A DNA stretch of 64,000 nucleotides from Sporolactobacillus kofuensis. Lineage in GTDB: Bacteria; Bacillota; Bacilli; Bacillales; Sporolactobacillaceae. Each line of letters begins with the position of its first letter. The stretch's first letter is position 1. The stretch spans positions 186,001 to 250,000 of the forward strand of contig NZ_JAMXWN010000003.1 in NCBI RefSeq assembly GCF_024125425.1, written 5' to 3'. The notes beneath the pieces are model-generated. The model saw only the letters and a program-made list of their open reading frames with translations, ran no database searches and was not told the DNA's origin. The translations under genes and the position numbers were made by a program. Shown here in pieces: positions 5,650-51,755 of this stretch.

Positions 5650-6156
5650 TTACGCATGCTCAAAAGTCAATAAGCTTTGTATTTCTTCCGCTATCCTTGC
5701 TGGAGATTTGTTGTCCGTGATGATCGTGAAGTCGGCTGATTGTTCATAAGCGTACATTCTCCGCTGATAAAGCGTAAAAAACGCTGCATAGGACTGGAAA
5801 AGTGGACGCGTATTGTCCCCATGTAACCGACAAATGACTGAGTCTAAAGAAGTTTTGAGATAGATGACTGGCGCAGTATTTTTCTCTAACAACTGTCGAT
5901 TTTGGACGCTCCCGATCGTCCCTCCTCCTGTTGATAAAATTCCGGGTTGTTCAAGAACCTTTACCAGCAGCTCTGTTTCCAAATCCCTAAAATATTTTTC
6001 ACCCTGTTCAGCAAAGAGTTGATTAATCGTTTTTTTGGCGTACTTGACAATCAGGTCATCGAGATCTAGATGTGTGCAATGAGCCGTCCTAGCCAGTAAT
6101 TTACCAATCGTTGTCTTCCCACTTCCCATGAATCCGGTGAGAATTGCTTCTACCAT
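5650..6156 (-). CDS. aroK: Shikimate kinase
   Basis: A 168-residue cytoplasmic enzyme phosphorylating shikimate with ATP in the chorismate pathway. It shows the P-loop GFMGSGKTT (residues ~8-16), the shikimate-binding DLDDLI, the Arg of YFRDLE, the GGGT motif (STGGGT) and the lid arginine in NTRPLF. I place the start at ATG 6156 because AGGTGAT lies about five bases upstream; the in-frame GTG three codons earlier would overlap that ribosome site. It lies 40 bases after the tyrA stop and is the last gene of the tyrosine operon. No convincing terminator follows before selO. Confidence 0.95.
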   Translation of the reverse strand: MVEAILTGFMGSGKTTIGKLLARTAHCTHLDLDDLIVKYAKKTINQLFAEQGEKYFRDLETELLVKVLEQPGILSTGGGTIGSVQNRQLLEKNTAPVIYLKTSLDSVICRLHGDNTRPLFQSYAAFFTLYQRRMYAYEQSADFTIITDNKSPARIAEEIQSLLTFEHA

Positions 6157-6195
6157 TCTTATCACCTGAATTTTTCTTTAAGTTTTTCGATTCGT

Positions 6196-7067
6196 TTATT
6201 GAGAATCATGATCCAAAATTGTCCGTACTGCTTTGGCTTGTTCAAAAAATTGATTGATGCCTTCCCTGTCGTCCTTTTGAAGTGCCCTTTTAACTTTATC
6301 TAGAGAACGACAAAACTGTTCAATTTGTTGAATGAGTATAGACGAGTTGCTTTGCAAAATCGCCGTCCATAGTTGCGGATCCGACGCAGCGATACGTGTC
6401 GTGCTTTTAAAACCACCTGCTGCATAATCGAGAGAAAAATGATTTTGCTCTGCTGCACATTTTGTCATATTGACCAGACCGGCGGCAATAATATGTGGGA
6501 GATGGCTCAATTGGCCGACCACTTGGTCATGCTCCTCAGCTGTAATCTGCTGCCAGCACACCTGTAATCCGGACAAGAGTGTTTTCAATTCAGCAATTGC
6601 CCGTCGACTTTTCAGGCTACCATCAGGGCAACCAGAAAATAATTAGCCTTTTGAAAAAGATCTGGTCGTGCTGAGCGGAGTCCACTTTTATGCGAGCCGG
6701 ACATCGGATGCCCGCCGATAAACGTAACGCCTTCATGAACGAGTGACTTTGACTGCTCCATAATCTGTTGCTTCGTACTCCCAACGTCTGTAACGATGAC
6801 ACCATTCTTCAACTTCATCCCCAACAACAATTTTATATGGGAAAGAATCCGATCAACTGGGGTTGCCAACAGAATAAGATCTGCCTGTGAAGCAATTGAA
6901 TCCAAAGTTTCAAAGCCTTCATCAATAAAACCCCGGCTTTTTGCAAAAGCCAAAGATTCCTGGTTGATATCCACAGCGAAAATTTTCCATTCCGGCGATT
7001 GCCTTTTAATCGCTAAAGCAAGCGAACCGCCAATCAGTCCCAACCCATCAATGACTATTGTTTTCAT
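6196..7067 (-). pseudogene. tyrA: Prephenate dehydrogenase, interrupted by a single-base frameshift, no ACT domain
   Basis: Two adjacent frames together encode a ~290-residue TyrA. The N-part (7067 to ~6628) has the NAD motif GLGLIGGSLA, ATPVDRILSH, TDVGSTK and the catalytic-His region GGHPMSGSHKSG. The C-part has EEHDQVV, SHLPHIIAAGLV and AAGGFKSTTRIA, all typical of the helical dimer domain. The frames join if one C is restored in the GGG/CCC run at 6626-6628, giving YFLVAPDGSLK. This is therefore either a genuine one-base deletion or a homopolymer sequencing error; as written, translation stops at 6612. The enzyme converts prephenate to 4-hydroxyphenylpyruvate with NAD+. Compared with Bacillus TyrA (~370 residues) the C-terminal regulatory ACT domain is absent. 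The start is ATG 7067, just ahead of the NAD motif. Confidence 0.9.
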
Positions 7068-7161
7068 CTGCTCAGGACTTCTTCCTTTTTTAAAATGGTT
7101 ACTTTCATCAGAGAATGGAACGTATCCAAGCGAGCTCTGGCTATGTGCTATGTTCGAGCAA

Positions 7162-8625
7162 TCACTTGATCTGCCCTTTCTCCCGCACATGAATTTGATT
7201 GTTTTTCGATCGGTTGATAATCGTTTGATAGATTTCCTTACAATATTGCCTGTTCTCCGTATCGGCGACCTGCCGATCTATTCTGTCCATGATTACCTGT
7301 TCGCGTTCCGGATCATATACATCCCTTTGCTGTTCCAGTTTCTTGATGCCGATCTCTTGTGTTAATCTAAATCGTCTATTCAGCAGGCGAATGATCCAAT
7401 AGTCGATCCTATTAATTTGACGGCGTTCCTTCTCATAGGGTGCCGGATGATCGACCAACAGCATAAGATGCTGCCCAATTAGACAGAATATAAATGACAG
7501 GAGTGCGATCACTACATCGACGCGCAGGACAAGCGACAGGCTGATTTGAGACAACATCCCTGTAATAATGGGAATCGTAAATGAAGCAAGGCTTCCAAAC
7601 GAGAAGAAAATGCCGGTAATTTTTCCTTTCTTCTCAGGAAAGAGACTTCCGAAAACATTCAAGCCAACCTGCATCACACCACCCGCTGCAGTCACCCCAA
7701 ACAGTAAGGAACAAATGCTGACAATGAAGGAATTTCCTGAAAAACAAATCATCAGCATAAGTAAGAATGAAAGACCATTCATAACGGCAACGAGCTTCAT
7801 TGGATTAATCGATCGTCTCAGCAGAACAAAAATGAGCAGTACACCTGTAATCGAACCGATACTGTAGAGCGACAGCAGAAAATGAGCCGCCATATTGCTC
7901 ATGTGTAAGACCTCGGTACCATAGAGGGTAATCCATTGTGTGAAGAGAATCATTAAGGCCATAGAACTGTAGCCGTAGAAAGACAAGATCATGAATAAGC
8001 CTACCCGAGCTCCGGACCTTTTGACGGGTTGTGCACTTTGCTGATTTGCATTTGCTCGAAGCTGGGTTTGCTGCGGAAATTGCAGTCGAATAAGCATGAG
8101 TAAATTAGCCACAAGGATGACTCCAACCAGAATAAAAATGATGCCATACCAACCTTTGATCGTTTCATTCAATCCAATCAGAATCGGCAGAACAAATTCG
8201 CCAAGAGACATCGCTGCTTTGATCAGAATATTGGCAGATCCATTTTCTCCTTTCAATTCAAGAAATGTTGGGTAGGTTCCGGAATCTAATGCTGAATTTG
8301 CGATACCGGCGAGAATGGCTAGTCCATACGCGATTCTAAAATCCGTTGTGAATGCCATACCAATGAAGAAAATGGTGTACATAACCATCCCGGTAGCAAT
8401 AAAGAATTTCCGTCCATATTTATCAGATAAACTGCCTAAAACATAGTAGGCAAACAAACGCCCAATGCCGACACCAGAAATAACATAAGAGACTGTGGCT
8501 AGCGGTGTATGCCAGCTTTGGCTCAAAGCGTTCATGTTTTGTGTCAGAATGATTAACCCCATTCCGTGAACAAGGTAATTTAAATACAATACCGTTTTTA
8601 ATCGGAAATAGTTATGATTTTCCAA
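7162..8625 (-). CDS. MFS transporter fused to an AroQ-type chorismate mutase
   Basis: A 487-residue protein with two parts. Residues 1 to ~395 form a major facilitator transporter with about 12 hydrophobic segments and the loop 2-3 motif GSLSDKYGRKFF. Residues ~397-480 align with the AroQ chorismate mutase fold and keep the catalytic set known from the E. coli P-protein: Arg401 (R11), Arg418 (R28), Lys429 (K39), Asp438 (D48), Arg441 (R51), Glu442 (E52) and Gln477 (Q88). The motif VYDPERE is diagnostic. The mutase would sit on the cytoplasmic side. It is the first gene of the tyrosine operon, followed 95 bases later by tyrA and then aroK, and it has a Tyr leader-peptide attenuator upstream. 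The substrate is unknown; an aromatic acid, amino acid or pathway intermediate is the reasonable guess from context. Confidence 0.9.
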   Translation of the reverse strand: MENHNYFRLKTVLYLNYLVHGMGLIILTQNMNALSQSWHTPLATVSYVISGVGIGRLFAYYVLGSLSDKYGRKFFIATGMVMYTIFFIGMAFTTDFRIAYGLAILAGIANSALDSGTYPTFLELKGENGSANILIKAAMSLGEFVLPILIGLNETIKGWYGIIFILVGVILVANLLMLIRLQFPQQTQLRANANQQSAQPVKRSGARVGLFMILSFYGYSSMALMILFTQWITLYGTEVLHMSNMAAHFLLSLYSIGSITGVLLIFVLLRRSINPMKLVAVMNGLSFLLMLMICFSGNSFIVSICSLLFGVTAAGGVMQVGLNVFGSLFPEKKGKITGIFFSFGSLASFTIPIITGMLSQISLSLVLRVDVVIALLSFIFCLIGQHLMLLVDHPAPYEKERRQINRIDYWIIRLLNRRFRLTQEIGIKKLEQQRDVYDPEREQVIMDRIDRQVADTENRQYCKEIYQTIINRSKNNQIHVREKGQIK

Positions 8626-8658
8626 TCGTCTTCTCTCCCATTCATATAAAAAAAATAA

Positions 8659-8684
8659 CCAGTCAGATTGGATAATCTGACTGG
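8659..8684 (-). terminator. Attenuator terminator in the tyrosine operon leader
   Basis: Segment C, CCAGTCAGATT (8684-8674), and segment D, AATCTGACTGG (8669-8659), form an 11-bp perfect stem with a four-base loop. A U-rich tract follows at 8658-8643. It lies 33 bases before the transporter ATG, so it must be bypassed for expression. Segment B, AATCTGGCTGG (8732-8722), can pair with C instead (11 bp, one G-U) as antiterminator. Segment A, CCAGCCGGAT (8756-8747), can pair with B (10 bp, one G-U). Confidence 0.9.
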
Positions 8685-8825
8685 TTTCGAAAATCTCAAG
8701 AGAATCATGATGAGCTCGCTGCCAGCCAGATTCTTAATAGTAGTGCATCCGGCTGGTACGTACATTATGCTTCCCAACTCCAGATACAAACGAAATAATC
8801 GTTCATACCGTGAGCCGGTACGAAC
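8685..8825 (-). promoter_or_regulatory. Alternative-structure region of the Tyr attenuator
   Basis: Between the leader peptide and the terminator lie several competing pairings. Hairpin P is GTTCGTACCG (8825-8816) with CGGTATGAAC (8810-8801), 10 bp with one G-U, starting right after the leader stop codon. CCGGCT in P (8818-8813) is also complementary to AGCCGG in segment A (8754-8749). The Tyr-codon stretch ATTATGCTT (8851-8843) is perfectly complementary to AAGCATAAT (8772-8764). Together with the A:B, B:C and C:D pairings these give a translation-responsive switch. No T-box core sequence is present. Confidence 0.75.
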
Positions 8826-8882
8826 TTATCTAAAGTAAACGTAAGCATAATAATAAGTCTTGCTGAGCTTCAAATGGTTCAT
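8826..8882 (-). CDS. Tyrosine leader peptide (attenuation), 18 residues
   Basis: A short reading frame, ATG 8882 to TAA 8826, encodes MNHLKLSKTYYYAYVYFR. Five of eight consecutive residues are Tyr, with one Phe directly after. AAAGGA lies 11 bases upstream as a slightly distant ribosome site. It falls between a strong promoter (-10 at 8920-8925) and a leader terminator, the layout of pheL/trpL-type leader peptides. Its role would be to stall the ribosome when charged tRNA-Tyr is scarce. The peptide itself probably has no function after synthesis. The frame is too short for gene finders. Confidence 0.85.
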   Translation of the reverse strand: MNHLKLSKTYYYAYVYFR

Positions 8883-8919
8883 GATCTTTGAGATCCTTTC
8901 TTTTTAAAATTTGTTTATC

Positions 8920-8947
8920 ATTATAGCACTCCATGCGAAAATAGCAA
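8920..8947 (-). promoter_or_regulatory. Promoter of the tyrosine operon
   Basis: -35 TTGCTA (8947-8942), a 16-base spacer and a perfect -10 TATAAT (8925-8920) on the minus strand, placing the transcript start near 8912, about 30 bases before the leader peptide. It lies only 13 bases after the stop of the quinone reductase gene. Confidence 0.8.
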
Positions 8948-19042: not shown

Positions 19043-20088
19043 AAGTTGAGTTCCGCCCTTTGAATCCATTGATCCGCCATATCTTGGGCAAATTTATCCT
19101 TGCTTCCAAAAGCTATTTTTCTTAACACGTCCATCCCTCCCGGTGTGTGAGCGATTGCCTCGCCCGAATAATGGCGCACCCACCAGTTTCTGCTTGTCAG
19201 AAGGTTTTTAAGTGCTGGAAGGTACTCAGGTGTTTTTAACCCCTTTGCAATCTGGCAAAAAATCATCTGTTCAATCCAGTAATCCGAGTTAGCAAAAGGA
19301 AGAAGTTTCTCATTCTTACTGATATACGAAAAGTCACGTATCGTCTTAAGGGCGTGAATACGAATGTCCATGCTTTGATCGGACAAATGATTTTCAACAA
19401 AGGGAAGATAGTGTAATTCACGTTTCTCCCCAATTACAGATAGTATAGAGATCCTCAACTCTTGAGTGCATTCATCGAATTGATCAACGAGATGTTTGAA
19501 TAGTCGCCCATCCATCTTTGAAATGACTTGTTTATAAAAATAAACAGAATGATATGGTGGTTTTGTCATTAATTGACTAATGACGCGCAGATCGTTTGCC
19601 TGTGCATTGATTCTTAAAATGATATATTGTTCCTGACGAGAAATGTGCTTTCGGTAATAGACTTGCCATAGATTAATCCATGACGCTGCAGGTCCCAGAC
19701 TTTCAAGGAGATATAAGGTATTCATTCGCTCACTCCAGCTGTGTACCCCTAATCTTTTTTTGATCACTGGAACAATGTATTCTTCGAACGTCTTTGATTG
19801 AATGAAATTAAGCGAATTTAAATCGAATTGATTGTTAATTTCTTTTACTAATTCAAGGATTGAATCCCCAAATGGCCTTTTTTTAGAATACATTTCCAGA
19901 GAATGCTCTTGGTTCCAAAATAAATTCTGAAAGATCAGAGGTTGTATCTTCCTTTTTAATTGTTCAACACTGGCCTGACTGTTGTTTTCATAAATTTTAT
20001 GCACGACAAGAATAATAAATAGAACCGACAGTATAATAAACAAAGTGATCACTGACCAGACAACAATCTTAATTGAAAGAGGAAACAA
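19039..20088 (-). CDS. Membrane-anchored HEAT-repeat protein
   Basis: A 349-residue protein with one N-terminal transmembrane helix (IVVWSVITLFIILSVLFIIL) and a cytoplasmic alpha-helical region. Helical repeats are visible in the second half: RIHALKTIRDFSYI, EYLPALKNLLTSRNWWVRHYSGEAIAHT and GGMDVLRKIAFGS, which match HEAT/PBS-lyase-type repeats. Such repeats scaffold protein complexes. It starts at TTG 20088 inside the end of the response-regulator gene (20-base overlap) and ends inside the start of the synthase, so it is probably a tightly co-translated partner of that membrane enzyme. Confidence 0.75.
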   Translation of the reverse strand: MFPLSIKIVVWSVITLFIILSVLFIILVVHKIYENNSQASVEQLKRKIQPLIFQNLFWNQEHSLEMYSKKRPFGDSILELVKEINNQFDLNSLNFIQSKTFEEYIVPVIKKRLGVHSWSERMNTLYLLESLGPAASWINLWQVYYRKHISRQEQYIILRINAQANDLRVISQLMTKPPYHSVYFYKQVISKMDGRLFKHLVDQFDECTQELRISILSVIGEKRELHYLPFVENHLSDQSMDIRIHALKTIRDFSYISKNEKLLPFANSDYWIEQMIFCQIAKGLKTPEYLPALKNLLTSRNWWVRHYSGEAIAHTPGGMDVLRKIAFGSKDKFAQDMADQWIQRAELNL

Positions 20089-51524: not shown

Positions 51525-51755
51525 AAGCTTTCATCCTTAGGCTCTTGCCTAGGGACGAAAGCTTTAGTATGCTCACGCGGTTCCACCCTAATTGGTACAG
51601 ATCACTGTACCCACTTTAGTACGCTGTGGCTCTGGAATGCCTTCCTCAAATGCTGCAATCAGGCTCTCACTATCCCCGAATCGCTACCTGCAGCTACAAT
51701 GAGTACTCCTTTCCATCATTGCCTACCTATAAATAGTTCCTGCTTATTTTCTGAT
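51525..51755 (-). promoter_or_regulatory. T-box riboswitch (glycine) with leader terminator
   Basis: The T-box core AGGGTGGAACCGCG reads on the minus strand at 51589-51576. It is followed by a terminator stem AAGCTTTCGTCC / GGATGAAAGCTT (51566-51525) with ATTTTATTT. Upstream lies a long stem I region closing with GCTGCA/TGCAGC; a candidate specifier GGC is at 51641-51639. A -10-like TATACT at about 51758-51763 suggests the promoter. Uncharged tRNA-Gly would stabilise the antiterminator and turn on glyQS. Confidence 0.92.

Follow-up and report, generated by a model that had tools for sequence, protein, structure and literature searches.

The leader of an operon in Sporolactobacillus kofuensis is probably a ribosome-mediated transcription attenuator sensing charged tRNA-Tyr, as judged from its own sequence and from those of its relatives. 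It lies in a 64,000-nucleotide stretch of DNA (the window) and combines a short Tyr-rich reading frame (ORF) with an RNA of seven segments, which can pair either as 1:2, 3:4 and 5:6 (the read-through set) or as 2:3, 4:5 and 6:7 (the termination set). Both predicted alternative helix sets are shown to covary, and the putative regulatory codons are shown to match the amino acid of the operon. The regulation itself, the working order and the sign of the switch are what we infer. An earlier note on this DNA had described four segments, A to D, and a hairpin P; its coordinates for the promoter, the ORF, the four segments and the terminator hold on the minus strand (Table 1), and its placing of an attenuator before what appears to be a tyrosine operon was borne out.

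Table 1. Features of the window leader and of the operon behind it (window coordinates)
Feature	Coordinates	Strand	Remarks
Promoter-like site TTGCTA-16-TATAAT, TG before -10	8920..8947	-	consensus match alone, 10 of 12 bases
Leader ORF, MNHLKLSKTYYYAYVYFR and stop, 18 codons	8826..8882	-	five Tyr codons, at -9, -8, -7, -5 and -3 from the stop
Segment 0, ACUUUAGAUA, end of the ORF	8827..8836	-	possible 10-bp pairing with segment 3, suggestive only
Segment 1, first base directly after the stop codon	8816..8825	-	partner 2
Segment 2	8799..8810	-	alternative partners 1 and 3
Segment 3, absent from the earlier note	8774..8793	-	alternative partners 2 and 4
Segment 4 (A of the earlier note)	8745..8756	-	alternative partners 3 and 5
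Segment 5 (B)	8722..8732	-	partner 4, or 6 as antiterminator
Segment 6 (C), terminator 5' arm	8674..8686	-	partner 5 or 7
Segment 7 (D), terminator 3' arm and U-tail	8648..8669	-	partner 6
MFS transporter fused to type II chorismate mutase, first gene	7162..8625	-	
tyrA (prephenate dehydrogenase)	6196..7190	-	two frames, 7190-6612 and 6588-6196, in this assembly
aroK, shikimate kinase	5650..6165	-	

Leader peptide and seven-segment RNA

The leader ORF has the SD AAAGGA, and the terminator comprises 13 pairs, a loop of 4 and a U-tail. The folding energy of the 265-nt leader is -95 kcal/mol, whereas shuffled sequences give -55.7 +/- 4.75 (z -8.3), none of 200 shuffles being as stable. In the window fold the SD and start region of the leader (8883-8904, minus strand) is paired with the spacer that separates segment 5 from segment 6 (about 8691-8712). 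By eye, several Sporolactobacillus relatives allow the same pairing, which could stop translation of the leader once the spacer has been synthesized.

The tyrA gene of the operon is split in this assembly, and no second copy was found in the S. kofuensis genome. Its two parts lie in a single frame in 19 of 35 related loci, which are those holding both parts. The split may be a mutation of the strain or an assembly error.

Using the MFS-chorismate mutase protein as query, 35 loci were obtained in named genomes, which belong to Sporolactobacillus and to several genera of the Lactobacillaceae; in a number of Lactobacillaceae relatives the match is limited to the transporter part. In 34 of the 35 loci the RNA is immediately preceded by the end of an ORF that has 2-5 Tyr codons, in agreement with the tyrosine leader peptide first proposed. 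The exception, L025, has kept the Tyr run, but its usual stop is out of frame and the frame continues. Tabulated leaders carry three to five Tyr codons in 36 of 37 cases and two in the remaining one. Their N-termini vary, and the pattern of the last ten codons is kept (e.g. YYYGFAYFM, YYYSFYYFR, YYYGYAWFR). In the last nine codons of these 37 leaders Tyr leads with 151 of 333 residues (Phe 62, Trp 15), and both Tyr codons occur.

Chance was gauged at 20,000 random positions in loci L005-L039, where, with the true leaders left in, 39 and 200 leader-like ORFs had at least four and at least three residues of one kind, respectively. A leader-like ORF had 12-34 codons and an end within 12 nt, one kind of Tyr, Phe or Cys being counted in its last ten codons. 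At least three Tyr, Phe or Cys of one kind were present in 37 of the 38 homologous leaders counted. The ORF and the structure of the window leader exceed chance.

For covariation, 34 of 39 leaders were aligned (A1), leaving out the near copies L011, L029, L032 and L049, and L039 with its long loops. A blind scan of every column pair, with no structure supplied, returned eight stems: 1:2, 2:3, 3:4, 5:6 and 6:7, plus 3:6, 5:7 and a shifted 6:7, the last three arising because even segments resemble one another, as do odd ones. The 4:5 helix, which is interrupted by a gap column, was counted separately. In the read-through set 97.0% of the cells were paired, with 52 both-side changes against 19.2 in shuffles; the corresponding values for the termination set were 95.0%, 85 and 28.6. 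Sliding the partners by 1-3 columns left 26-40% paired.

Since these shuffles leave relatedness in, the count was repeated on 36 other leaders (A2), namely 34 of 40 Lactobacillaceae loci together with L160 and L173; L189, L194, L201, L202, L205 and L207 were left out, as were L148, L167 and L168, which had been prepared. The A2 leaders come from the same families as those of A1, and the model by which they were searched held the termination set only, without read-through pairs. The read-through set was 95.5% paired, with 91 both-side changes against 23.6 in shuffles, and the termination set 97.6% paired, with 119 against 25.1. The blind scan of A2 gave 11 stems, including all six consecutive ones, which were likewise among the 18 stems of a streptococcal-type alignment (31 distinct of 32 leaders, the non-streptococcal L106 included).

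The leader thus has an intrinsic terminator and a mutually exclusive antiterminator. The pairings A:B, B:C and C:D, proposed as mutually exclusive, correspond to 4:5, 5:6 and 6:7 and covary. Aligning homologous leaders, the check named in the earlier note, found both the Tyr run and the competing stems conserved, the stems with covariation. Of its four-segment layout the A-D pairings stand and the number of segments does not, seven being present, including the missed segment 3 that links P to A.

Distribution of the leaders and their codon runs

Genomes were searched with a covariance model of the attenuator that contained the termination pairs only. Within the genus, 12 of 15 genomes gave strong matches; one (G013) gave a weaker match without a Tyr-rich ORF, and G010 and G012 gave no strong match. 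In the Lactobacillaceae set, built around the genome that holds a named Liquorilactobacillus locus (the names given here to other families are our own assignments), 174 of 397 genomes matched at E <= 1e-6, and the loci read scored about 60 bits or more. A predicted translatable short ORF with an SD and a run of regulatory codons ends at the RNA in all 40 Lactobacillaceae loci read. A leader was also present in 31 of the 32 loci L143-L174; the exception, L164, had a short flank and showed a leader when reread as L204.

Beyond this set, matches at E <= 1e-4 were found in 43 of 335 genomes of a family taken for Streptococcaceae, in one genus of ten, and in 20 of 105 genomes of an Enterococcus-like family, where six of the 20 loci (L106, L225, L227, L228, L239 and L242) have an aromatic leader. 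Among genomes drawn from the class, in a sample that may itself include Lactobacillaceae, 9 of 398 matched at E <= 1e-5, and three of the nine matches (L108, L109 and L110) have no leader. Because a part of such weak matches lack a leader, the counts at low scores include false hits.

Several loci are peculiar. L111 (G002:C1:3490444-3490634) is a second strong copy of the attenuator, with a truncated MFS gene and a transposase-like gene downstream. At L179 and L180 (G744, G542) two attenuators lie about 1.5-1.7 kb apart amid paralogous ABC binding-protein genes. In the streptococcal-type leaders L122, L124 and L129 the frame stops four bases early and UAGAUAG, lying in part past the stop, is kept, which hints at a role of these bases at the RNA level.

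The genes behind the 40 Lactobacillaceae leaders were assigned to classes by our own short sequence patterns, and the Tyr and Phe codons among the last ten were compared between them. Means for Tyr/Phe were 4.4/1.6 before aroE (7 loci), 3.8/1.9 before MFS(-CM) genes (17 loci), 3.5/2.5 before chorismate mutase/aroC (2 loci) and 0.0/5.0 before TrpX-like ABC transporters (12 loci). The single pheA leader had 0.0/3.0, and the single leader followed by an unrelated, transposase-like gene (L205) had 4.0/1.0. Pfam confirmed representatives of aroE, aroA (L160), chorismate mutase with aroC (L173) and the PF04392 binding protein. No Pfam match was obtained on the 175-residue pheA frame, the label of which is our own reading, and the TrpX model matches the transporters at a score below its cut-off. 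In Fructilactobacillus lindneri, the one case of its kind, a leader ending in NCCCTCCMI precedes a cystine-type binding protein (its best model, though below the cut-off) and a MetQ/NlpA lipoprotein. Streptococcal leaders (e.g. YYYFSFFR) carry Tyr and Phe ahead of a TrpX-like transporter. The leader codons track the operon: Tyr with MFS, aroE, aroA and aroC, Phe with pheA and the ABC transporter, and Cys once.

According to the part of PMC6816091 consulted, solved relatives of these transporter binding proteins bind Tyr, Phe or Trp. In our alignment, read by eye against residue positions given there, the position of Glu-263 in CD0873 is taken by Ser in both binding proteins compared, and that of a Gln in the Trp-binding SP1069 by Tyr. 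These binding-site residues were rejected as a means of telling Tyr from Phe specificity, since they do not discriminate and oppose Trp only. A Trp-type homologue in S. suis is under T-box control (PMC9382623, in excerpt).

Proposed working of the switch and other readings of the leader

The 3' edge of a ribosome lies about 12 nt past the first base of the codon in its A site. On this footprint, a ribosome stalled at Tyr -9, -5 or -3 would have its edge at -15, -3 or +3, counted from the stop codon's first base; past the stop, a ribosome on the stop codon would cover about ten bases, and one at Tyr -9 to -3 at most one. Segment 1 could therefore be covered only by a ribosome on the stop codon, so that the switching would be done by the ribosome that is not starved.

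When charged tRNA-Tyr is ample, the ribosome would reach the stop codon and cover segment 1, and 2:3, 4:5 and 6:7 would form, leading to termination. When it is scarce, the ribosome would wait on a Tyr codon 3-9 codons before the stop and leave segment 1 free, upon which 1:2, 3:4 and 5:6 would form and the operon, with segment 6 occupied, would be transcribed. The ORF end, by pairing with segment 3, may stabilize read-through or, where the leader is not translated, may set the outcome.

Equilibrium folding weakly supports this predicted sign. The helices 1:2 and 2:3 are of similar mean energy (-15.8 and -17.6). When 4 to 11 bases past the stop of the window leader are covered, 2:3 takes the place of 1:2, and for 5 to 10 bases 3:4 is lost as well. 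With segment 6 out, a ribosome at Tyr -9, -5 or -3 gives a P(5:6) of 0.91-0.99, and one at the stop that covers 10 bases gives 0.24. The value depends on the number of covered bases: 0.17-0.48 for 9-11, 0.75 for 8 and above 0.9 for 7 or 12. When segment 5 is just out, the window leader prefers 2:3 and 4:5, whether the ribosome is stalled or at the stop.

Across 34 leaders, covering segment 1 lowered P(5:6) by more than 0.1 in five and raised it in two. With the ORF masked, the expected and the opposite response numbered 6 and 1 for 8 covered bases, 5 and 3 for 10, and 4 and 5 for 12. Mean P(5:6) at the three stalls was 0.76-0.78 in Sporolactobacillus against 0.57 at the stop, and 0.75-0.90 against 0.83 in mixed Lactobacillaceae; leaders of the Lentilactobacillus type did not respond (0.09-0.15 against 0.13). 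As a proof of the switch, equilibrium folding was rejected as not general and sensitive to the assumed footprint. Given its weakness on the last step, the read-through form must be largely kinetic; as folding does not show that step, we infer the sign from geometry and parity, with a kinetic effect assumed. The three genomes of the genus that lack a strong match, the out-of-frame stop of L025 and the split tyrA also count against the attenuator reading.

Three other readings were weighed. In the first, which we regard as unlikely, segment 0 sets the attenuator: the unoccupied end of the ORF would pair with segment 3 and lead to the terminator, and a stalled ribosome would cover segment 0 and free segment 3 for 4. 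This agrees with an 8-10 bp complementarity of 0 and 3 in the Sporolactobacillus rows, with a TTT at codon -2 (36 of 37 leaders, and 63 of a further 70), and with a P(3:4) of 0.00 in the window leader without a ribosome. In A1 the leaders' own 0:3 pairs reach -6.38 against -5.19 when swapped, none of 300 swaps being as low, but such swap tests are inflated by relatedness, and streptococcal leaders give no swap signal (179/300). Against it, the window leader without a ribosome keeps P(5:6) at 0.89 with segment 6 out, segment 0 is out of reach for a ribosome at the first Tyr codon, and by eye only 3-4 pairs are left in several Lactobacillaceae leaders.

More improbable still is a switching of the same two folds by a ligand or a protein, the Tyr-rich ORF being incidental. 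Conservation of two alternative folds would suit it, the regulation being predicted from sequence, and the position of the ribosome moves equilibrium folding weakly. But 34 of 35 homologous loci have an ORF with an SD directly before segment 1, the codons change with the operon (in the 12 transporter leaders no Tyr and a mean of five Phe, Tyr in aro/tyr leaders, Cys once), and neither the window leader nor 15 relatives match an Rfam riboswitch or T-box.

Least probable, and very doubtful, is the mechanism of the earlier note, in which stalling at the late Tyr codons puts the ribosome over the 5' arm of P and the P loop (CCGGCT) captures A (AGCCGG): its A-D pairings are real and covary and the two motifs are complementary in the window, but by eye this pairing and the loop sequence are not common to the other alignment rows, segment 3 can provide the link, its helix 3:4 covarying, a Tyr-stalled ribosome with the usual footprint falls short of segment 1, and covering segment 1 favours 2:3 in equilibrium folding.

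Relation to known leaders and meaning

In trpL, pheL and hisL of enterobacteria, the leader codons and segment 1 overlap, and a stalled ribosome masks this segment. Features that the window leader has in common with them are an amino-acid-rich leader peptide, an intrinsic terminator, an exclusive antiterminator and an operon for that amino acid. Its segment 1 starts after the stop codon, so that it does not have the trpL/pheL architecture; it further differs from the three in its seven alternating segments and in the ribosome at the stop as the putative actor.

The statement that Firmicutes usually control such operons by T-boxes or TRAP, pheL/trpL-type attenuation being characteristic of proteobacteria and actinobacteria, was too strong. 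Excerpts of PMC5864092 describe the Listeria Rli60 or ilv-leu leader as a branched-chain leader-peptide attenuator, whose terminator consists of segments 3 and 4, and a Leu-rich attenuator peptide of the branched-chain ilv operon in S. aureus is reported in part of PMC5794164. Both share Firmicute leader-peptide attenuation with the window and differ in serving branched-chain amino acids. His-leader attenuators have been predicted in the B. cereus group, Peptostreptococcaceae and Erysipelotrichales, the commonest his control in Lactobacillales being T-boxes (both in the portion of PMC9413887 consulted); these predicted leaders resemble the window in leader peptide, terminator and antiterminator, and differ in the amino acid, histidine, and in lineage.

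T-boxes (RF00230) sense the charging of one tRNA and control a terminator in Firmicutes (PMC9382623, in part). The window leader would use a translated ORF, and T-boxes serve other genes in this genome, tyrS included. T-box identity was rejected, the T-box covariance model matching neither the window leader nor 15 relatives. Elsewhere in the S. kofuensis genome 15 T-boxes match, 12 of them over the cut-off, and one precedes its own tyrS; two systems therefore coexist in one genome. T-boxes occurred in all ten attenuator-bearing genomes checked. Within the window, a T-box match of 70 bits, below the cut-off, lies at 51548-51728 (minus strand) before a glycyl-tRNA synthetase-like gene.

One locus, L106 of an Enterococcus-like genome (G148), matches RF02863, 'Enterococcus sRNA 2410', at 68.5 bits (cut-off 61). 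In Rfam 15 that cut-off was not reached by 30 other sources (15 loci, 14 loci and the window), and a known Rfam element was rejected for the window and all loci scanned except L106. RF02863 is filed as an sRNA and not as an attenuator; the entry may represent the terminated leader of an operon for aromatic amino-acid transport.

No description of Tyr, Phe or Cys leaders of this type was found in open-licence full text, a body that takes in neither preprints nor subscription papers; searching the same body for the MFS-chorismate mutase fusion gene brought up none either, nor do the portions of PMC8632094 and PMC9426450 consulted mention them. What appears to be new is these Tyr, Phe and Cys leaders; leader-peptide attenuation itself is old, and known for Firmicutes too.

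The leaders may well form a modular attenuator family of Lactobacillales and Sporolactobacillus, in which one alternating chain carries exchangeable Tyr, Phe or Cys runs and the finishing ribosome, not the stalled one, is the effector. Such a family would mean that a group regarded as relying on T-boxes also has a widespread amino-acid sensor coupled to translation, and that a single testable rule holds for aromatic biosynthesis genes and for aromatic or cystine-type transporters in bacteria of food, the gut and the mouth. Since nature would here have swapped codon runs within a single RNA frame, what the ribosome reads could be set against the action of the RNA, and the chain of seven segments would suit the study of co-transcriptional folding kinetics.
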